DNA from: Planktothrix rubescens CCAP 1459/22
Lineage (GTDB): Bacteria; Cyanobacteriota; Cyanobacteriia; Cyanobacteriales; Microcoleaceae
Assembly: GCA_904830895.1 (NCBI GenBank)
Contig: LR882958.1
Coordinates: forward strand, 3,908,501 to 3,972,500
DNA length: 64,000 nt
Reading direction: 5' to 3'
Below the pieces are notes generated by a model. That model ran no database searches, had not been told where the DNA came from, and was given only the letters and a program-made list of their open reading frames with translations. Within the stretch, counting starts at the first letter, position 1. The number at the start of each line of letters is the position of its first letter. Positions 33,464 through 47,793 of the stretch are shown here, one piece after another. Both the position numbers and the translations under genes were made by a program.

Positions 33464-35722
33464 ATGCAATCAACATCACCATCCCTTACCATCACCCCTA
33501 ATAAAAATATTAAAGTCATTAAACGAGATGGTCGTCTGGCCCCATTAGATGTCTCTAAAATTCGAGAAGTCGTTAACTGGGCTTGTGAGGGAATGGAGGC
33601 GAATCCGATTACCCTAGAAGCGGGACTAACCACCCGACTGCGGCATGGTGTGACTACCCGAGAAATTCAGGATAATTTAATTAATTGCGCCTTAGAGTTA
33701 TGCAGTCCCTCCGACCCAAACTGGCGTTATGTGGCGGGAAGACTACAGATTTGGAGTTTATGGAAAGATACCTTAGTCCGTCGGGGCTATGAATACGGCG
33801 ACTATTGCAGAACGGTTCATAATAAAGTGGAACAGGGACAATATGACGTTCGGATTCTGACTTACACCGCCGAAGAACTTCAAGAGGCCGGAAGTTGGAT
33901 TAATCCCGAATGGGACAAAGATTATGATTATGCTGGGGCAGTTTTGTTAAATAAACGCTATTTATTAACAGATGAATTACCCCAAGAAGCTCTATTAACC
34001 TGTGCGTTGCTATTAGCAATTGTAGAAAAACCCGAAAATCGGTTATTCTGGGCGAGAAAGTTTTATCAAGCGATCGCTCAACGTAAAGTTTCCTTAGCTA
34101 CCCCAATTTTAGCAAATTTAAGGATTCCTCACGGCTCCCTGAGTAGCTGTTTTATTACGGCAATGGATGATAATTTGGAAAGCATTTTTGACACGATTAA
34201 AGATGCCGCCAGAATTTCTAAAAATGGCGGCGGTGTGGGCACAAATGTTAGCCGAGTGCGGTCAACTGGCAGTTGGGTGATGGGAAAACAAAACACCTCG
34301 GGGGGTGTGATTCCTTGGATTAAATTATTAAACGATACGGCGATCGCGGTAAATCAAGGCGGACGTCGGGCGGGGGCGATTACGGTGAGTTTAGATGTCT
34401 GGCATTTAGATGTTCCTGAATTTCTGGAAATGCAGACAGAAAATGGCGATCAACGTCGCAAAGCTTATGATATTTTCCCTCAATTAGTGATTCCTGATGA
34501 GTTCATGCGTCGGGTGATCAGTCGAGAAGATTGGACACTGGTTGACCCCTATGAAGTTAGGGAAAAACTGGGCATTGAATTAGCCACAACTTGGGGGGAA
34601 TCCTTTGAAAGTGTATATCAAAAAATAGAAGCAAACTTAGATACGGAAATCACCCTTTATAAAAAGGTTAATGCTCGGGATTTATTTAAGTTAATCATGC
34701 GTTCCCAAGTAGAAACCGGAATGCCCTATTTATGGTTTAAAGATACCTCAAATCGGGCTAATCCTAATCAACATGAAGGCTATATTCCGGGGGGGAATTT
34801 GTGCCAAGAAAGCTGGTCGAATGTTAAACCCGGAGAAGAAGCACACACTTGCAACTTGGATTCTTTGAATTTAGCTAATATTGAACGAGAAGAACTGCCG
34901 GAAGTCTGTGAAATTGCGGTGCGAATGTTAGATAATACGATTGAAATTACTAACACTCCCTTTGAAGCTAGTAAAACCCATAACCAAAAATATCGAACAA
35001 TTGGGGTAGGGGCGATGGGATTAGCGGATTGGTTAGCCAAAAATCGCTTAACTTATAACCATTTAAACGAAATTAGTCATCTGTTTGAAGATATTGGTTT
35101 CTATTGTACTAAAACCTCAATGGAACTGGCAAAAGAACGGGGTTATTACCCAGCATTTAAAGGCAGTGCTTGGAGTCAAGGAAAGTTAATTGGGGCGAAA
35201 CCCGTAGAGTGGTTTTTGCAACACGCGGCGCAGAAAGAACGTTGGCAACAATTGAGTTTAGATATTCAACAATATGGGATTCGTAATTCTCATATTACCG
35301 CGATCGCTCCTAACACATCCTCTTCTTTGGTGCAAGGATGTACCGCTAGTATTTTGCCCTGTTATAGTCGTTTTTTCTATGACAAATGGGCGAAGGGAAC
35401 AGTTCCAATTGCTCCACCGTTTCTTCAGGATCATTTTTGGTTTTACCCGGAAAATAAAAGCCTAAATCAACAAATTGTTGTTAAGGCGGTGGCGACGGTT
35501 CAAAAGTGGATTGATACCGGAATTTCCATGGAATTAATGTTTAATTTGAATGAGGGAGTTTACTTTCCTGATGAACCCGATCGCGCTATCAAAGCTAAGG
35601 ATATTTTTGATACCTTAATCTTAGCTTGGCAAGAAGGCTGTAAAGCGGTTTATTATGTCAGAACCGTGCAGCGTGATAGTTTCAAAGAAGCTGATGATGG
35701 TTGCGTTGCTTGTGCTAATTAA
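33464..35722 (+). CDS. nrdA: Ribonucleoside-diphosphate reductase, class I alpha subunit
   Basis: 752 residues from the ATG at 33464. Reduces ribonucleoside diphosphates to deoxy forms with NrdB. An N-terminal ATP-cone (IKVIKRDGRLAPLDVSKIREVV) is followed by the barrel with Cys229 (LSSCFIT), Cys447 (NLCQES, thiyl radical position) and Cys463 (HTCNLDSLNLAN), the NTSSSLVQGCTAS block, and the C-terminal CVACAN redox pair. Full length and uninterrupted by introns or inteins, in contrast to nrdB 77 bases downstream. Confidence 0.96.
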   Translation: MQSTSPSLTITPNKNIKVIKRDGRLAPLDVSKIREVVNWACEGMEANPITLEAGLTTRLRHGVTTREIQDNLINCALELCSPSDPNWRYVAGRLQIWSLWKDTLVRRGYEYGDYCRTVHNKVEQGQYDVRILTYTAEELQEAGSWINPEWDKDYDYAGAVLLNKRYLLTDELPQEALLTCALLLAIVEKPENRLFWARKFYQAIAQRKVSLATPILANLRIPHGSLSSCFITAMDDNLESIFDTIKDAARISKNGGGVGTNVSRVRSTGSWVMGKQNTSGGVIPWIKLLNDTAIAVNQGGRRAGAITVSLDVWHLDVPEFLEMQTENGDQRRKAYDIFPQLVIPDEFMRRVISREDWTLVDPYEVREKLGIELATTWGESFESVYQKIEANLDTEITLYKKVNARDLFKLIMRSQVETGMPYLWFKDTSNRANPNQHEGYIPGGNLCQESWSNVKPGEEAHTCNLDSLNLANIEREELPEVCEIAVRMLDNTIEITNTPFEASKTHNQKYRTIGVGAMGLADWLAKNRLTYNHLNEISHLFEDIGFYCTKTSMELAKERGYYPAFKGSAWSQGKLIGAKPVEWFLQHAAQKERWQQLSLDIQQYGIRNSHITAIAPNTSSSLVQGCTASILPCYSRFFYDKWAKGTVPIAPPFLQDHFWFYPENKSLNQQIVVKAVATVQKWIDTGISMELMFNLNEGVYFPDEPDRAIKAKDIFDTLILAWQEGCKAVYYVRTVQRDSFKEADDGCVACAN

Positions 35723-35799: not shown

Positions 35800-36017
35800 A
35801 TGACCTTAGACTTTGCTTCATCCCCACCCCTGGACAAAAATGGGCGTAGAAAGCCCTTAACTATGCCCATAAATCCGATTTTCAATCCGAATGGAAATGA
35901 TGATATTAATCATCGTTCTATTTGGTTTGGGGAAACCACAAATTTAATGCAATTAAATGATGTGCGTTATTCCTGGGCCGTGGGTTTGTATAAACAAATG
36001 CGCGAGAATTTCTGGGT
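35800..36017 (+). CDS. nrdB: nrdB exon 1
   Basis: 72 codons plus two bases, ending RYSWAVGLYKQMRENFW + GT. The ATG at 35800 is chosen over 35761 because that stretch is not family-like; the conserved part begins at PINPIFNP. The exon tail CTGGGT (36012-36017) is the P1 half of intron 1. Confidence 0.88.
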
Positions 36018-39000
36018 TAATTAGGTAGCTCAGACTAAATCCCTTGAAAACGGTGAAACTCTGTGTAATTTATTGGCGTTGCGAGAAAGTTTTTTGTATT
36101 ATGAAATATAACTTTCATAATATCAAAAATGGAAAGCAAGACCTGTAGCAAGTGTCACGTTGTTAAACATATTTCCGAATTTCACAAAGACGCTAGGTTA
36201 AAAAGTGGAATAGTCTCAAGGTGCAAAAGTTGTATTCTTGCATACAAGCAAGACTATTACGCATCAAGTCATGGGAAAGCTAAATCCAAAGCCTACGTTG
36301 AAAGAAATAAAGAAAAGATACAATCCTATAACAAGCAGTATCTTAGGGAATATAGAAACTCTGGAATAAAAAATAAAAATAAACTAGAGTTTTGTATTTA
36401 TAAAGGTGGTTGTTGTTCAGAATGTGGATTTGTTGCAACGGAAGATACTATTGCTGCCTTTGATTTTCATCACACTGATCCTTCTGAAAAGGAATATACT
36501 CCATCAGATATGGTGTTAATGAGAAAAGATAAGGTATTCCAAGAATTAGATAAATGTATTCTCTTGTGTTCTAACTGTCACAGGATTCTACATTACAGAC
36601 AATACCGTGCCAAGCTTGCTAAAAAGCAAGAAGGTGTAGAGACTAACCCTATAAGGGAGTAGGCTGTAAGCGATTGACAGTCGAAGCGGGGGACTCCTTT
36701 TGCTATTAAAAGGATGATGAGATAGTCCGATCCATAAGGTGACTTATGGCAGCTTAAATCAAGCGGGTTAGACTTAGCGAATCTAACTGAACACCAATGA
36801 CCCGAAAAATTAGATATTACTCAGGATGTCGTGGATTATGTTAACTTAACTCCCGATGAACGTTGGGCATTTGATGGAATTTTAAGTTATTTAACCTTCT
36901 TAGATTCTGTTCAAACCTGCAATATTCCTCATCTGAAAAGTTGTGTAACTGCCCCAGAAATTAGTCTTTGTATGGCGGAACAAACTTCTCAGGAGGCGAT
37001 GCACAATCAGAGTTATCAATACATGATTGAAACGATTATTCCATCCGATCGGAGAACCTTTGTTTATGAGTTTTGGAAAACCGATAGTGTTTTGCGCGAT
37101 CGCTGTGAATTCATTGCCGGGATTTATCAACAATATATGGATGTGCGATTCGTTTAACCTAAAATAAACCGAAAGGTTTATGGGACGGTTAACCCAGTTT
37201 ATAAGACTGGTGATAACTGATTACATTTATGGGTGAACCGCCGTGCGGTAAGTCCCATCCCTCAAGTGCTGAGGTGAAAACATAACCCCTAGTTTGAATG
37301 GGTAGCAACCAACAAGCTAAAGCGGGGTTAAAAGGTAGAACTACTGGAAGCCAAATCTGGTAACTATCGAGTAAGAAGTCCATGCGTAGCGAAAGCAAAG
37401 ATGTGTTTGAACCACCGTTAATTGTGATGGTGTAATGGCTAAATCAAGAACAATCTTGAATAACACCAAGCCAAAAGGCAAGGATAGGGCATAAGCGGGT
37501 GTTCAACCGACTTATAAGCACCGCCCAAAAACCCGGTGGATAACATCACGCTAAAGACTTCAAACAAATGTGTAATCGGAACGAAGTAACCCCTGTATAT
37601 CTCTGGAGAGGTCGTGCGTCCAGTAAGTAGCTAACGAATGATATATGGGGAAGGGATGGTATCAAAAGCGAATGCTTTGCTGTAATGGCAAAGATATGCT
37701 GACAGATACTCGGTAATTCCAAAGAAATAGAACAAGTAGCAATACAAATGTCTAAAACGCTGATTAAAACTCAGACGGTGGAATGGAAAGACCTTAACTG
37801 GCGCAAGCTGGAAAGGGTAACTTTCAAGTTGCAAAAGCGCATATTTCAAGCGAGTGAACGAGGCGATGTTAAAGCAGTTCGTAAACTTCAAAAGACCCTG
37901 ATTAATTCCTGGAGTGCTAAATGTATTGCGGTTCGCAGGGTAACACAAGATAACCAAGGCAAAAATACGGCTGGAGTAGATGGAATTAAATCTCTTACCC
38001 CAAAGCAACGTATGAACTTGGTAGGACGATTAAAGTTAACCAATAAGGTAAAACCAACTCGCAGAGTTAATATTCCCAAACCTGGTACAACAGAAACCCC
38101 CCCCCAAGCCCCCCATGCACGGGGGGTTTGGGGGGGCGGAATACCCACAATCAACGACCGCGCATTGCAAGCGTTAGTTAAACTAGCGTTAGAACCAGAA
38201 TGGGAGGCTGAATTTGAGCCAAACAGTTATGGTTTCAGACCAGGACGTTCCTGCCACGATGCAATAGGAGCAATATTTTTGAGTATCAGATACAAGTCCA
38301 AATATGTACTTGATGCTGATATTGCCAAATGCTTCGACCGCATAAACCACAAAGCATTAATCTCCAAGATAAACACATACCCTACATTAAGCCGTCAAAT
38401 TCAAGCGTGGCTAAGAGCAGGGTACATGGACGGAAAAGAACTTTTTCCTACTAATGATGGTACACCACAAGGCGGGGTAATTTCACCTTTACTTGCGAAT
38501 ATTGCCCTACATGGTATGGAAGAAAGAGTCATGCAATATGCAGAAACTCTAAAAGGGAGAAAATTGGCTAACCGTCAATCTCTTAGTTTAATCCGTTACG
38601 CCGACGATTTCGTAATAATCCATGAGGATTTAAACGTAGTTAAAAAGTGTCAAGAGATAATTGCTGATTGGTTAAGTGACATGGGATTGGAATTAAAACC
38701 AAGTAAAACAAAATTAACCCACACCCTTAATGAAATCGAAGGAAATGTTGGGTTCGAGTTCTTAGGATTCCATGTACAACAACACAAAGTAGGTAACTAC
38801 CGATGTGCGAACAACACGCACGGAACACCGCTAGGTTTTAAGACATTAATCACACCCTCAAAAGCCAAAGTTAAAACTCATCTTGTCAATATAGCTGAAG
38901 TAATAGATACCCATAAGACTGCCCCTCAAGCTGCTTTAATTAGCAAGCTAAATCCAATTATTAGAGGTTGGTCAAACTATTACTCAACTAAAGTTAGTAA

Positions 39001-41443
39001 GGATACTTTCTCAAAAGTTGATAATCTAACTTATGACAAATTAAGAGCCTGGGCAAGAAGGAGGGGAAAAGGGAACATCAACAAAGACAAATACTGGAGA
39101 ACAGTAGGCGACAGAAATTGGTGTTTCAGTACAAAAGATGGATTAGAATTATTCACCCACGCCAGTACGCCAATCGTAAGGCATACAAAGGTCAAAGGAA
39201 AGGCTAGTCCGTTTAATGGAGACTGGATTTACTGGAGTAAACGAAGGGGCGAATATCCTGAAACTCCTAGCAGAGTTTCCAAATTAATCAAAAAACAAAA
39301 GGGTATTTGTCCTCACTGTGGTTTGTATTTCACAAGTACAGACATTGTAGAAGTTGACCATATTAAACCAACATCATTAGGTGGAAAAGACATCTATGAT
39401 AATTTACAACTTCTACACAAACACTGTCACGACACAAAGACGGCTCATGATGGTTCTTCAACTAAAAATAAGCAATTACCAATAGTTGAGAATTATGAAA
39501 ATAACCCGTTTTGAATCGTATCCGTAACAAGGATGGAGTTATCAAGGAGCCGTGTGAGGTGAAAGTCTCACGCACGGTTCTGAAGGAGAGGTAGGAGTGG
39601 TAACGCTCCTATCGACTCTAACAATCCCACCCTGGAAAATTACTTTATTTCCCTGTTAGCTGACTATATGTTAGAAGGAATTTACTTCTACAATGGGTTA
39701 AATTAATGGCCCCCTAGCACCGCGAGATGTTAGTGAAAACTCATCAAATTGCTGGAACCCCCTAAAGCCTTTATACCAAAGCGAAATTAGAAATGATAAG
39801 CGCGCCAGGTGCGAGAGCAGAAAAAAGTTAAAGGATTGATTGGAAGCCGCAAGGGATCTAATCTTTACAATGGGCAATCAGCAGCCAAGCTCCTCATAAA
39901 AGGAGAAGGTTCAACGAACAGAGGGTGAGTATCTTTTATTCGTTTAAGATAAAAGATAATGGTATGTTCTAGCCCCTACCGAAAGGATGGGTAGTAGCGT
40001 TATCTACTTCTACAATTTAGCGTCACGGATGTTAATGCCGGGATCTGCCGATATTTTCAAAATGATTAACCGTTAAATTCATAGCGGCTTTTCACGGTAA
40101 CGTGAATTGAAAACCCCTCTAATTCAGGGAAACTCTCAATTGAGACAATCCTGAGCCAAGTGGAAAGATGAACTTCCCCATGTTATAATTCATCTACAAC
40201 CTAATAGATGTCTTAGCTCATGGATGCCAAACACCCTGATTTGCCTTATACGGTTTCTGAAGATGGTTCTATGCTCAAAGTAAGAGGTCAAGGAATTAAG
40301 AAGACGACCCGAAGTACCGCCGGATATCGTCAGATTAGTTGCTATGGAAAGACATTTCTTGTTCATAGAGTTGTTTGGGAAGCATTTAACGGGGAAATAC
40401 CACAGGGATTGCAAATCAATCACATTGATGGAAATAAAGCTAATAATAGTCTGTCTAATCTTGAGTTGGTGACACCTGCTGAAAATATCCGTCATGCAGT
40501 CAAAACAGGATTAAAACAAGGGAAATCAGCCGAAACTAACTCTATGGCTAAACTCACTAATGAACAATATTTGGAAATAATCCATGATCTTGTCAATGGG
40601 GCAACCAATCAAGAGGTTGCTGATAAGTATGGGTTACACTCCCGATATATCTCACTGATTCGTCATAGAAAACGTCTGAAGTCTGTTTGGCAGCAATTCG
40701 AGAATGAAAATCAAGTCGTTCAAGTTAAAAATAGTTCGGGTTTAAACAGTAAAATTCCTATTGAGCAAAGAATTGAAGCTATTAAGAGACTTCCGACTTG
40801 CTCTAATAAGGAATTAGCCCAATGGCTTGATGTTGACTGCTCTGTTATTAGCAATGTTCGTCATAGAAAAACATGGATTGATGCTTGGGAAGTTATTGAT
40901 TCTAAAGGTGCAACGACTAGCGGTAAAAGCGTAGTAGCAAGTGCTACGAAACGGGGGGCTTCCTATTAGGAAGATGATATAGTCTATTCTGAAAGGTGAC
41001 TTTCAGCAGTTCTTAAGAGAACGGGCAAGGACTAACGACCCTTGTTGAATATTAAGGATGAACTTTCTCATGTTCGGTTATTCCAGAAATTAATTCCTGA
41101 AGCCATGCAAGTGTTTACCCACTCTGTTGATCAAATTTATGAAATGTTCAATACCGCCGTTGAACATGAATGTAAATGGACTAATCATATTGTGGGAAAT
41201 AATATCTTAGGAATCACGGAATATAGTACGGAACAATACACCAAATATCTAGCCAATATTCGGTTACGTTCTATCGGTTTAGAGCCCCTTTATCCCGATA
41301 AAAAGTACAGTAAAAGTCCCTATACCCATTTAGAACGCTTCTCGGATACCAAAAAAGAAGCCCATACTAAAGCCAACTTCTTTGAAGCCAGCGTCACCAG
41401 TTATGTGATGTCTTCTGGGGTCAGTGGTTGGGACGAAATTTAA
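35800..41443 (+). CDS. nrdB: Ribonucleoside-diphosphate reductase beta subunit, split into five exons by four introns
   Basis: Exons deduced here: 35800-36017, 36800-37142, 39623-39698, 40000-40073 and 41057-41443 (218+343+76+74+387 = 1098 bases, 366 codons with stop, no frame break). The joined 365-residue protein has the diiron ligands Asp108, Glu138, His141, Glu205, Glu239, His242 and the radical Tyr145 (EAMHNQSY), so it is a complete class I beta subunit if spliced. Introns: group I, group II, group I, group I in order. Without splicing only exon 1 (74 codons to a stop in the intron) is made from the normal start. Confidence 0.93.
36018..36799 (+). other. Group I intron 1 in nrdB (782 bases, HNH ORF)
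   Basis: The exon end CTGGGT pairs with the internal guide GCTCAG (36028-36033), giving six pairs with the required U-G at the splice site. The P7 strands are GACTA (36641-36645) and TAGTC (36723-36727), the latter inside GATGAGATAGTCCGA, a classic S element. A P9-like hairpin CCATAAGGTGACTTATGG follows. The last base is G (36799), after which the reading frame resumes as PEKLDITQD. Carries an HNH endonuclease gene. Confidence 0.88.
36129..36662 (+). CDS. Intron-encoded HNH homing endonuclease (zinc-finger type)
   Basis: 177 residues. A zinc pair set near the N-terminus (KTCSKCHVVK with SRCKSC), a Lys-rich linker, and an HNH core CSECGF...FDFHHTDPSEKE...LLCSNCHRILHY near 110-155. Such proteins nick or cut the intronless allele so that the intron spreads. 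The last six or seven codons overlap the P7 strand of the intron core (36641-36645), so the gene and ribozyme share sequence. Not homologous in architecture to the endonuclease of intron 4. Confidence 0.88.
   Translation: MESKTCSKCHVVKHISEFHKDARLKSGIVSRCKSCILAYKQDYYASSHGKAKSKAYVERNKEKIQSYNKQYLREYRNSGIKNKNKLEFCIYKGGCCSECGFVATEDTIAAFDFHHTDPSEKEYTPSDMVLMRKDKVFQELDKCILLCSNCHRILHYRQYRAKLAKKQEGVETNPIRE
36800..37142 (+). CDS. nrdB: nrdB exon 2
   Basis: Completes codon 73 and encodes residues 74-187, including Asp108, Glu138, His141 and Tyr145. It ends GAT just before the group II intron's GTGCG. On its own the frame would run into the intron and stop at 37157. Confidence 0.9.
37748..39514 (+). CDS. 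ltrA: Group II intron reverse transcriptase/maturase with HNH domain, repeat-disrupted
   Basis: 588 residues: RT blocks from about 60, active-site YADD at 284-287, maturase (X) domain with IIRGWSNYYSTKVS near 395-420, and a C-terminal HNH nuclease (CPHCGLYF...EVDHIKPTSLGG...LHKHCHDTKT). Residues about 117-131 (TPPQAPHARGVWGGG) come from a GC-rich palindromic repeat replacing the PNGEERPLG-type segment that the sister protein has at the RT finger. The frame is kept, but activity is doubtful. The domain order fits the cyanobacterial/chloroplast-like class. Confidence 0.9.
   Translation: MSKTLIKTQTVEWKDLNWRKLERVTFKLQKRIFQASERGDVKAVRKLQKTLINSWSAKCIAVRRVTQDNQGKNTAGVDGIKSLTPKQRMNLVGRLKLTNKVKPTRRVNIPKPGTTETPPQAPHARGVWGGGIPTINDRALQALVKLALEPEWEAEFEPNSYGFRPGRSCHDAIGAIFLSIRYKSKYVLDADIAKCFDRINHKALISKINTYPTLSRQIQAWLRAGYMDGKELFPTNDGTPQGGVISPLLANIALHGMEERVMQYAETLKGRKLANRQSLSLIRYADDFVIIHEDLNVVKKCQEIIADWLSDMGLELKPSKTKLTHTLNEIEGNVGFEFLGFHVQQHKVGNYRCANNTHGTPLGFKTLITPSKAKVKTHLVNIAEVIDTHKTAPQAALISKLNPIIRGWSNYYSTKVSKDTFSKVDNLTYDKLRAWARRRGKGNINKDKYWRTVGDRNWCFSTKDGLELFTHASTPIVRHTKVKGKASPFNGDWIYWSKRRGEYPETPSRVSKLIKKQKGICPHCGLYFTSTDIVEVDHIKPTSLGGKDIYDNLQLLHKHCHDTKTAHDGSSTKNKQLPIVENYENNPF
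38097..38137. repeat. GC-rich palindromic repeat inserted in the maturase gene
   Basis: C-run, AAG, C-run, ATGCAC, G-run, TTT, G-run: the same hairpin as at 18119-18153. Comparison with the sister maturase shows it adds about 11 codons net and replaces a few, without a frame shift. Confidence 0.85.
39623..39698 (+). CDS. nrdB: nrdB exon 3
   Basis: 25 codons plus one base: NPTLENYFISLLADYMLEG then IYFYNG, including the iron ligand Glu205. Its end ATGGGT is the P1 half of the next intron. Confidence 0.88.
39699..39999 (+). other. Group I intron 3 in nrdB (301 bases, no ORF)
   Basis: Exon end GGGT pairs with GCCC in GGCCCCCT of the intron (U-G at the splice site). P/Q strands AATTGCTGGAA and AATCAGCAGCCAAG allow P4; P7 strands are GAACA (39916-39920) and TGTTC (39965-39969). 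The last base is G (39999), and the frame resumes as TT-ATCTACTTC (FIYFYNLASR). Too small for a protein, so it must be spread or helped by others, or be immobile. The core is unlike that of introns 1 and 4. Confidence 0.82.
40000..40073 (+). CDS. nrdB: nrdB exon 4
   Basis: Two bases completing Phe213 plus 24 codons: IYFYNLASRMLMPGSADIF then KMINR. It ends one codon before the iron-ligand motif DELSH, which lies across intron 4. Confidence 0.88.
40074..41056 (+). other. Group I intron 4 in nrdB (983 bases, HNH ORF)
   Basis: Exon end CCGT pairs with GCGG in the intron (CATAGCGGCTT) with U-G at the splice site. Textbook P (AATTCAGGGAAACTC) and Q (AATCCTGAGCCAAG) elements are at about 40121 and 40147. 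P7 strands are GACTA (40915-40919) and TAGTC (40980-40984). The hairpin CTGAAAGGTGACTTTCAG has the same AAGGTGACTT loop as in intron 1. The last base is G (41056), resuming as GATGAACTT (DEL). Confidence 0.88.
40220..40969 (+). CDS. Intron-encoded HNH homing endonuclease (NUMOD/HNH_3 type)
   Basis: 249 residues. An N-terminal beta module (YTVSEDGSMLKVRGQGIKKTTRS) precedes the HNH_3 core FLVHRVVWEAFNGEIP...INHIDGNKANNSLSNLELVTPAEN (about 55-90), then two helix-turn-helix-like repeats (NQEVADKYGLHSRYISLIRHRK and NKELAQWLDVDCSVISNVRHRK) that probably read the DNA target. The final 18 codons (GATTSGKSVVASATKRG) overlap the P7 region of the intron. Unrelated to the intron 1 enzyme apart from the HNH fold. 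Confidence 0.9.
   Translation: MDAKHPDLPYTVSEDGSMLKVRGQGIKKTTRSTAGYRQISCYGKTFLVHRVVWEAFNGEIPQGLQINHIDGNKANNSLSNLELVTPAENIRHAVKTGLKQGKSAETNSMAKLTNEQYLEIIHDLVNGATNQEVADKYGLHSRYISLIRHRKRLKSVWQQFENENQVVQVKNSSGLNSKIPIEQRIEAIKRLPTCSNKELAQWLDVDCSVISNVRHRKTWIDAWEVIDSKGATTSGKSVVASATKRGASY
41057..41443 (+). CDS. nrdB: nrdB exon 5
   Basis: 128 codons and stop, starting DELSHVRLFQKLIPEAM (Glu239 and His242 are iron ligands) and ending SSGVSGWDEI, the C-terminal tail that docks to NrdA. The longest exon; a frame from 41042 is open through the intron end but is not a real start. Confidence 0.92.
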   Translation, partial: DELSHVRLFQKLIPEAMQVFTHSVDQIYEMFNTAVEHECKWTNHIVGNNILGITEYSTEQYTKYLANIRLRSIGLEPLYPDKKYSKSPYTHLERFSDTKKEAHTKANFFEASVTSYVMSSGVSGWDEI

Positions 41444-45414: not shown

Positions 45415-47793
45415 GTGACCTTAAAGGAAGGTCAATCTCGGAGTCAACGGTACGGATTACCGTACCTGAGAGATATAGGCAATACCCACAGAGCCAGACT
45501 GATTATCAAAACTCTGAAGCTGGGTATAACGGGAAACCGGGTGTAAGTCAAATGCCCAAGGAGTTCTCTAGCCAATTGCCCAAGAATAACGTAAGTGAAC
45601 ATCCGACTTGAACCGTCGTAATCATTAAGTAGCGAAACGACTTGTCACGCTGCGTTCAAAAGAACAAGGGGAACAGATAGAAGTTTTTATGTACTTCTAT
45701 AAAAGGTAAGGTTTTGAGTAGAACACTTACTTAGACTCCCAAAAGTACCCCGGCGGATAGGATGATTCTAAAGGCAATAAACCCATTTTCAAGGAACGTT
45801 AAAACCCCCTCATATACCCCTACAGAGGTCGAATATTGTTAGGTAGCCACAAATCTAAGGCGTATGTTATGAGGGCGAGAGATGGAGTCAGAAGCCAATG
45901 CCTAAATGTAATGTTTAGGATACGCAGACAGATTCCGGTTTAGTTGTTAGGTAAGGTTGTTAACGTGCAGTATAAACGGTGAAAACGAGTTTCAAGACTA
46001 CGGAAGCATGGAATACTATAAATTGGGCGAAAGTTCAAAGAAAAGTATTCAAGCTGCAAAAGCGAATTTACCAGGCATCATTATCGGGACAAAATGCAAA
46101 GGCTCGAAAACTTCAAAAACTTCTAGTTAAGTCATATTACGCCAAACTCTTAGCAGTTAGAAGGGTAACTCAAGATAATCAAGGCAAGAAAACAGCCGGG
46201 GTAGATGGTGTTAAATCCATCACACCCAAACAACGATTAGAACTTGTCGGAAACTTGAATAAATACCAAAAGGCGAAACCACTCCGAAGGAAATGGATAC
46301 CCAAACCCAACGGAGAAGAACGTCCTCTAGGAATCCCAACTATAAACGATAGAGTCAGACAAGCCTTGGTGAAATCTGCATTAGAACCACAATGGGAAGC
46401 CAGATTTGAAGGTGAAAGCTACGGGTTCAGACCCGGACGCTCTACCCACGACGCAATGTCAAGAATCTTCCAAAGCATCAATAAAGGTGAATATTACATC
46501 TTAGATGCTGACATCTCAAAATGTTTTGACCAGATCAACCATGAATACCTACTGTCCAAAATTGATTGTCCATCAACAATGAAAGCCCAAATCAAACAAT
46601 GGTTAAAAGCTGGAGTTATGGATAACGGCATATTTAATGCAACAGAGACAGGCACTCCACAAGGAGGAGTCATTAGTCCTCTACTTGCAAACATCGCACT
46701 GGATGGAATGATGAGTTTAGTTAGGAGCTTGTTCCCAAAGAAAACGAGCAACAACAAAAACTACGCAACAGTCATCAGATATGCCGATGATTTTGTGGTT
46801 ATTAGTCCACAATTAGAAGTCATTCAACAGTGCCAAGTTGTCATCGAGGAATGGCTAAAACCCATCGGGTTGGAACTGAAACCAGCTAAAACCCGGATAT
46901 GCCACACACTAAGAGAAATCGAAGTAAATGGCGAAAAGGTAACACCAGGATTCGACTTTTTAGGTTGGAACTTTCGACAATACCCTGTGGGAAAACACCA
47001 CTGTGGTACAACGGGAGGAAGCTCTAAGCGATTAGGATTTAAAACTCTAATAAAACCTAGTAAGAAGGCAATTAAAGCTCACGCGGACAAAGTGAAAGAA
47101 GTGATTAAAACCCACAAAACTGCACCCCAATACGCACTAATCAAACGCTTAAACCCTGTCATAAGAGGATGGTGTAATTATCACTCCAAAGTAGTTTCCA
47201 AAGAAACATACTCCTCTTTAGATTATATGACATGGCAGAGATTAAGAGCATGGACAGTCAGCAGATGCGGAAAGGCAAACTACGGGAAACTGAAGAACTA
47301 TTTCAGGAAAAACGATAGCAAAGCATGGAATTTTGAAACCAAAGATGGTTATAAACTACTAACCCATGCAGAAACACCAATCACCCGCCACGTCACTGTA
47401 AGACCTGAAGCATCACCTTATGACGGAAACTGGACATATTGGAGTACAAGAAAAGGAACATCTTTTGATGTACCTAAACGAGTAGCAACTTTGCTCAAAA
47501 AGCAAAAAAGGCAAATGTAACCTCTGTGGGCAGTATTTTACCCCAGAAGATATTGCAGAAATCGACCATATCATCCCTACATCGAAAGGTGGAAAGAATG
47601 ATTATAAAAACCTGCAATTATTACATCGCCATTGTCACGATATTAAAACATCAACTGATGGGTCTTATAACTCAAAAGGAGATGGATGCTCTGATGATAA
47701 CAGTCAACTAGACTAGGAGCCGTGTGCGGTGAAAGTCGCAAGCACGGTTCTGAATGGGAGTCGGGGGTTGTAAAGCCCCCCTCGACCCCTAAT
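45415..47793 (+). other. Second group II intron, antisense to and upstream of the methyltransferase
   Basis: Domain V at 47717-47750 (GAGCCGTG...CACGGTTC) and domain VI ending CGACCCCTAAT give a 3' end at 47793. The 5' end is less certain: GTGACC at 45415 is the best candidate. It lies between the methyltransferase promoter region and an intergenic stretch and does not interrupt a plus-strand gene, so splicing is not needed by a host gene. Confidence 0.75.
45979..47716 (+). pseudogene. ltrA: Group II intron maturase, frameshifted before the HNH domain
   Basis: From GTG at 45979 the first frame gives 513 residues: RT with YADD at 268-271, intact IPKPNGEERPLGIPTINDR finger, and X domain. It stops at 47520. 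The HNH domain (CNLCGQYF...EIDHIIPTSKGGK...LHRHCHD) continues in another frame to 47716. The shift lies in CAAAAAAGGC, six A where five would keep the frame. RT and maturase may still work; the endonuclease would be lost unless the polymerase or ribosome slips at the A-run. Confidence 0.85.

Follow-up and report, generated by a model that had tools for sequence, protein, structure and literature searches.

How might a cyanobacterium obtain a working small subunit of ribonucleotide reductase when the only nrdB gene found in its genome is split into five pieces? This question is raised by a stretch of 64,000 nucleotides (nt) from Planktothrix rubescens CCAP 1459/22 (contig LR882958.1, positions 3,908,501 to 3,972,500 of the forward strand), which is called the window hereafter and in which nrdB extends from position 35800 to 41443. 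With a probability of roughly 85%, we consider that this sole nrdB is split by four predicted self-splicing introns, namely selfish homing or retrohoming elements that are spliced precisely and turn over fast. An initial annotation, made from the letters of the window, had proposed that five coding blocks join in one frame across three group I introns and one group II intron, and the exact joins are now borne out by empty sites in relatives. The gene is composed as follows, each intron site being numbered by the last nt of the preceding coding sequence; ORF denotes an open reading frame.

35800..36017, + strand: nrdB exon 1 (nt 1-218 of the coding sequence)
36018..36799, + strand: intron 1, group I, 782 nt, site 218 (Rfam score of 29.6 bits, below the cut-off; ORF-less homologues)
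36800..37142, + strand: nrdB exon 2 (nt 219-561)
37143..39622, + strand: intron 2, group II, 2480 nt, site 561, with the ends GTGCG...AAC
39623..39698, + strand: nrdB exon 3 (nt 562-637)
39699..39999, + strand: intron 3, group I, 301 nt, without ORF, site 637 (Rfam match)
40000..40073, + strand: nrdB exon 4 (nt 638-711)
40074..41056, + strand: intron 4, group I, 983 nt, site 711 (Rfam scores of 38.9 and 33.7 bits in two pieces, below the cut-off)
41057..41443, + strand: nrdB exon 5 (nt 712-1098)

The five blocks join without a frame shift into 1098 nt, which encode 365 amino acids and a stop codon; the 366 codons counted in the initial annotation include the stop. The joined protein matches the ribonucleotide reductase small subunit (PF00268, 230.5 bits; NF007184, 355.9 bits with a cut-off of 310), and 6zjk is the solved chain nearest to it by sequence. 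D108, E138, H141, Y145, E205, E239, and H242 are all present and invariant in an alignment of six cyanobacterial sequences; from the homology to the E. coli and T4 proteins, we take these residues to be the six diiron ligands and the radical tyrosine (Y145). The joined protein accordingly combines the family match with the ligands and the tyrosine of a class I small subunit, as had been claimed.

Also as first described, the gene of the large subunit is intact beside nrdB:

33464..35722, + strand: nrdA, uninterrupted, directly upstream of nrdB

The source genome (5.70 Mb, rated 100% complete) contains nrdA once, intact, and nrdB once, in pieces. A second intact nrdB, which the initial annotation had named as a sign that the split copy is dead, was searched for in this genome, and none was found. 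Furthermore, the class II reductase model gave at best 29.5 bits (cut-off, 340), in a match within nrdA, and no class III reductase gene exceeded the model cut-off in the genome. The earlier claim that the supply of DNA precursors depends on nrdB thus stands, and it is well founded from the sequence that a working NrdB would require four predicted splicing events. As judged from the ratio of nonsynonymous to synonymous substitutions (dN/dS) against the window gene, which is 0.01-0.10 in eight comparisons within the genus (genome G052 left out), the exons are under purifying selection.

What, then, are the inserts? At every join of the window, an exact empty site is found in relatives without that intron. 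The join after nt 637 is the only ambiguous one, by one T, and is settled at the position of the initial annotation because a group I intron ends in G. The Rfam covariance search that had been suggested as a check succeeded in part: intron 3 directly exceeds the group I cut-off (71.5 bits at 39690-39991; cut-off, 50), and so do domains 5 and 6 of intron 2 for group II, whereas introns 1 and 4 are placed in group I only through ORF-less homologues at the same sites. These ORF-less introns of relatives (six at site 218 and four at site 711) score 58-103 bits, and where their cores align, the window introns match those of genomes G045 and G046 at 94-100% identity. In predicted folds, which contain no pseudoknots and whose covariation was examined for sites 218 and 711, 24 of the 69 pairs at site 218 (nine introns) and 24 of the 68 pairs at site 711 (six introns) are kept despite changes on both sides. 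The P1 guide of intron 1, GCTCAGA (36028-36034), pairs with the exon sequence TCTGGGT; those of introns 3 and 4 are GCCC (39709-39712) and GCGG (40084-40087). At site 218, exon end and guide change together, GGGT occurring with GCCC or GCTC and GGAT with GTCC in 12 of 13 introns; the exception, locus L158, has its best P1 helix in another register. Intron 2 conforms to the group II end rule (GUGYG...AY) and has domain 5. The first in-frame stop is met at nt 5, 13, 6, and 1 of introns 1-4 (36022, 37155, 39704, and 40074).

Three of the introns carry genes of the kind expected for mobile elements, and intron 2 shows further features.

36129..36662, + strand: ORF within intron 1, 177 amino acids, HNH endonuclease-like (PHROG 2255, 1e-29)
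37501..37506, + strand: putative loop of exon-binding site 1 (EBS1) of intron 2, GTTCAA, pairing with the exon end ATGGAT
37748..39514, + strand: ORF of intron 2, 588 amino acids, with reverse transcriptase, maturase, and HNH domains
38099..38136, + strand: genomic palindromic repeat within the reverse transcriptase ORF of intron 2, frame kept
39545..39622, + strand: group II domains 5 and 6 of intron 2 (Rfam, 66.5 bits; cut-off, 40)
40220..40969, + strand: ORF within intron 4, 249 amino acids, HNH_3 endonuclease (PF13392, 69.1 bits)

A nuclease domain of a homing family is thus present in intron 4, and in intron 1 according to PHROGs only, its ORF matching no Pfam family at E 0.001. The ORF of intron 2 matches RVT_1, GIIM, and HNH, with TIGR04416 over its cut-off.

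Is the mosaic peculiar to this one gene, as the word "exceptional" in the initial annotation implied? Within the genus it is not. In all ten Planktothrix genomes nrdB is interrupted, by 30 introns in total (21 group I and nine group II) at ten sites, with one to five per gene; genomes G045 and G051 equal the window with four, and G046 exceeds it with five (three group I and two group II).

nrdB introns per genome: G000 (window) 4, G045 4, G046 5, G047 2, G048 3
nrdB introns per genome: G049 1, G050 3, G051 4, G052 2, G053 2

The intron of G052 at site 909 has its two ends on two contigs. When the exons are joined, the frame is open in the eight other complete genes of the genus (365-370 amino acids) and, in G052, up to an assembly gap. 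Turnover is evident even between the window genome and G045, which belong to the same species by the kinship measure: they share two of six sites (218 and 711), sites 561 and 637 being occupied in the window only and 255 and 432 in G045 only. Even the shared sites differ, in that the intron at 218 has an HNH ORF in the window and none in G045, and that at 711 encodes HNH_3 in the window versus LAGLIDADG, placed in another loop, in G045.

Nineteen of 38 group I matches in the genus lie outside nrdB, and 17 of them are introns of tRNA-Leu(UAA) or tRNA-Arg(CCU); another (L079) is 94% like the tRNA-Arg locus over 374 nt, and the last (L083 in G048) is a weak match of 27.5 bits outside any recognised tRNA. 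This search missed some introns within nrdB, and nrdB is therefore the sole protein-gene host only at the sensitivity of the search. nrdA is uninterrupted in eight of the ten genomes; it is split over two contigs in G049, and in G052 (L277:118-3399) it contains an in-frame insert with LAGLIDADG_3 and Hom_end matches, which is probably an intein.

The word "exceptional" is also countered by the four group I sites, which recur across the order and in phage nrdB. We collected 163 further nrdB loci, composed of 80 genome contigs (the best 80 of 125, a choice that favours intact genes), 67 viral contigs, and 16 stretches of other genomes; 133 are uninterrupted, 21 have introns (one, L134, repeats G049), and in the remaining nine, which are partial or broken, no intron could be called. 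When the phylum was sampled evenly, nrdB matched in 58 of 386 genomes, 45 of these being in the same order or nearer, and the match was in at least two pieces in 16 of the 45, one of which (G183) has no callable intron. At loci L265 and L274, overlapping matches in G183 suggest a frame break, and the match in G384 is only partial. In the genus and the 163 loci together, group I introns occur at 218, 432, 637, or 711 only. Each of the 45 introns collected (21 from the genus, four from G009/G010, and a further 20 that include two viral ones) has its closest match at its own site; the genus introns at 218 and 432 nonetheless share about 75-88 nt at their 3' ends. Site 218 lies within FWVPEK, 432 immediately precedes the codon of Y145, 637 is in the eighth codon after the ligand E205, and 711 splits R|DELSH, which holds two iron ligands. 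Compared with random windows in 72 bacterial genes, the group I sites are more conserved (0.792 vs 0.738, p 0.016), and the same test gave no excess for the group II sites (p 0.28 and 0.83); 8 of the 80 and 6 of the 67 loci, interrupted or partial, were left out, and the site of G052 was entered as 908 instead of the true 909. PMC2814812 states the same contrast between group I and group II introns in site conservation. The endonuclease families are HNH (PHROGs) at 218, HNH_3 with NUMOD4 at 432, GIY-YIG at 637, and HNH_3 or LAGLIDADG at 711. The ORF of the Geminocystis intron at 218 (L158) is 44% identical to the LAGLIDADG ORF of G045 at 711, and endonuclease genes therefore seem to change introns.

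Three bins assigned to Chloroflexaceae, Gracilibacteria, and Hyphomicrobiaceae (L092, L095, and L140) contain an nrdB 81-83% identical to the cyanobacterial one and are perhaps contaminated.

The group II introns behave differently, as far as their sequences tell. Between sites 255, 561, and 804 the copies share about 85-91% identity, and G046 holds two group II introns in nrdB; one lineage is thus seen to occupy several different nrdB sites; the introns at 341 and 213 are more distant from these copies. The source genome has 15 domain-5 copies. A sister intron in it (L287:1293-3847) shares 94.5% identity over 2388 nt with intron 2 and has the same palindrome at the matching place; it interrupts a gene that is called acs-like from its translation only. 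The EBS1 loop pairs in 6/6 positions at 255 (G045 and G051) and 804 (G046) and in 4/6 at 561 of G046, the counts for G051 and for site 561 of G046 being read by eye. As EBS1, the motif GTCCATG near nt 236 of the group II intron was set aside in favour of the variable loop, since it is kept (once as GTTCATG) whatever the exon. A second group II intron in the window (45979-47793) has a 513-amino-acid reverse transcriptase/maturase ORF and domains 5 and 6 at 47715-47793 (56.9 bits). Also, two Crocosphaera nrdB genes have group II-like introns, at nt 156 in one and at 145 and 220 in the other (L155 and L157).

How could such a gene persist? We propose that the three group I introns and the group II intron would excise themselves from the nrdB RNA, the protein being made only afterwards. 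Each group I intron would home into one fixed site, also between species and probably via phages bearing nrdB, and group II introns would retrotranspose into varied sites with their own maturase aiding splicing. Because nrdB is needed and the sites lie in codons hardly able to change, faulty excision would be selected against; precise splicing would make the elements nearly neutral, and the introns would therefore accumulate and turn over quickly.

Several observations weigh against this explanation. Introns 1 and 4, each of which holds an ORF, remain below the Rfam group I cut-off of 50. P1 pairing and the U/G end rule apply to all 45 group I introns, the three of the window included, but the rule helped choose the insertion site for 20 of them; 4-bp P1 helices arise in 36% of shuffles, and helices outside site 218 therefore carry little weight. 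In 61 viral genes, the conservation excess of the group I sites is not significant (p 0.13). In intron 2, EBS1 forms 5/6 pairs with the exon end, two of them G-U, and the palindromic repeat in its ORF is matched at 60 genomic places (64 strand matches; up to two mismatches; reversed control, 0). Given the weak EBS1 and this insert, intron 2 may splice poorly or rely on other copies for assistance. The weak EBS1 is not explained by supposing that intron 2 came recently from its sister in the acs-like gene, because each copy pairs 5/6 with its own exon.

Could the mosaic reflect a conflict between host and phage? nrdB might be a battleground at four fixed core sites, where intron endonucleases of either side cut the intron-less nrdB of the other; we regard this as rather doubtful.

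Five predicted viral contigs (L164-L167 and L228) carry a complete, uninterrupted nrdB whose protein is 89% identical to that of Planktothrix, and in a sixth (L171) the gene is cut off at the contig end. Two other predicted viral contigs are interrupted at 711: the intron of L225 scores only 27.3 bits and encodes an ORF 67% identical to the intron-4 endonuclease, and that of L227 has no ORF and scores 96.2 bits. Furthermore, a cultured Firmicutes phage, Alicyclobacillus phage KKP_3916 (OQ846916.1; L279:1255-2084), has its nrdB interrupted at the equivalent of 711, R|DELSH, by an 830-nt insert with an HNH-like ORF 51% identical over part of the intron-4 ORF, which suggests, at the level of sequence, that the 711 element moved through phages across phyla. 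Unlike in the window, this is the single interruption; the first exon is 42% identical, and the insert gave no Rfam match at E 0.01. The record of this phage annotates the nrdB pieces separately. In the five best viral nrdB genes, however, only 18-25 of 30 nt around each group I site match the window, and cutting by the window endonucleases is hence not assured. A search for viral relatives yielded none for the intron-1 endonuclease and six weak ones for the intron-4 endonuclease; in the cultured phage collection, no nrdB protein exceeded 60% identity. Only one of six proteins near the viral nrdB genes matched a PHROG, and it is therefore chiefly the IMG/VR label that marks L164, L225, and L227 as viral.

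Alternatively, the introns might have been domesticated, splicing being a switch through which growth state or translation controls how much DNA precursor is supplied. In each window intron a ribosome would indeed reach an in-frame stop after 1 to 13 nt, and at least one nrdB intron is kept in 10/10 genus genomes; in-frame stops are discussed as aiding intron folding in PMC3984707. Intron number and sites nevertheless differ even within a species, most of the other loci (133/163) do without introns, and no single intron is conserved, which makes a switch improbable. We consider it very improbable that nrdB is dead or dying: the number of interruptions, the weak exon-binding loop of one of the four, and the stops found in all of them would fit a non-functional copy, but this is the only reductase small-subunit gene found, no other reductase class was detected, the active-site residues are kept, the joined frames are open in relatives, and the low dN/dS is that of a maintained gene. 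Least credible of all, each exon might be translated on its own and the resulting pieces might associate into a working protein, as a split NrdA can work in Aeromonas phage Aeh1, but exons 3 and 4 would yield about 25 residues each and the inserts are ribozymes with exact empty sites.

Both classes of bacterial mobile intron stand side by side in one indispensable gene, and 1.1 kb of coding sequence is enough to compare group I introns, which keep to fixed sites, with group II introns, which wander. In the ten genomes of the genus, the homing cycle can be followed at shared sites through its stages: introns that hold an endonuclease gene, introns whose insert has shrunk, introns lacking an ORF, and empty sites. 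DNA synthesis would probably require that several introns be spliced out correctly; how the cell copes with these steps in its only detected reductase while translation meets intron stops is testable, and so is whether nrdB-bearing phages move these introns. Were the host-phage conflict true, the mosaic would be a by-product, or even an arm, of a struggle in a gene that neither side can lose.

What is new is not this one gene: across the genus, an indispensable gene carries a mosaic of the two intron classes, and the mosaic varies even within a species. In a limited literature search, we recognised no report of an nrdB with both intron classes or of Planktothrix nrdB introns, and priority is not claimed. 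Bacterial and phage reductase genes are known hosts of introns and inteins. To judge by the title of Liu, Yang and Meng (2003), the reductase gene of Trichodesmium erythraeum likewise holds several self-splicing elements, group II introns included; unlike that gene, Planktothrix nrdB combines group I and group II introns, with no intein in nrdB. Group I introns in reductase genes, which Planktothrix nrdB shares, are known from Nostoc punctiforme (Meng 2007) and from Arthrospira platensis (Fujisawa 2010), as cited in PMC3984707. In the present set of genomes, sites 218 and 711 are also occupied in G009/G010. Several elements likewise occur in the nrdE/nrdF genes of Bacillus phage SPbeta, whose nrdE has a group I intron and an intein, and of other phages; in the excerpts these are group I introns and inteins in class Ib genes, with no mention of a group II intron. 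In phage T4 the same gene, nrdB, is interrupted by a group I intron with an HNH ORF (I-TevIII), but this intron is single. The T4 site was placed by eye: with an intron length that we take to be 598 nt, five positions were tried, and the only one to preserve the conserved segment would lie two codons past 637, in the same phase.
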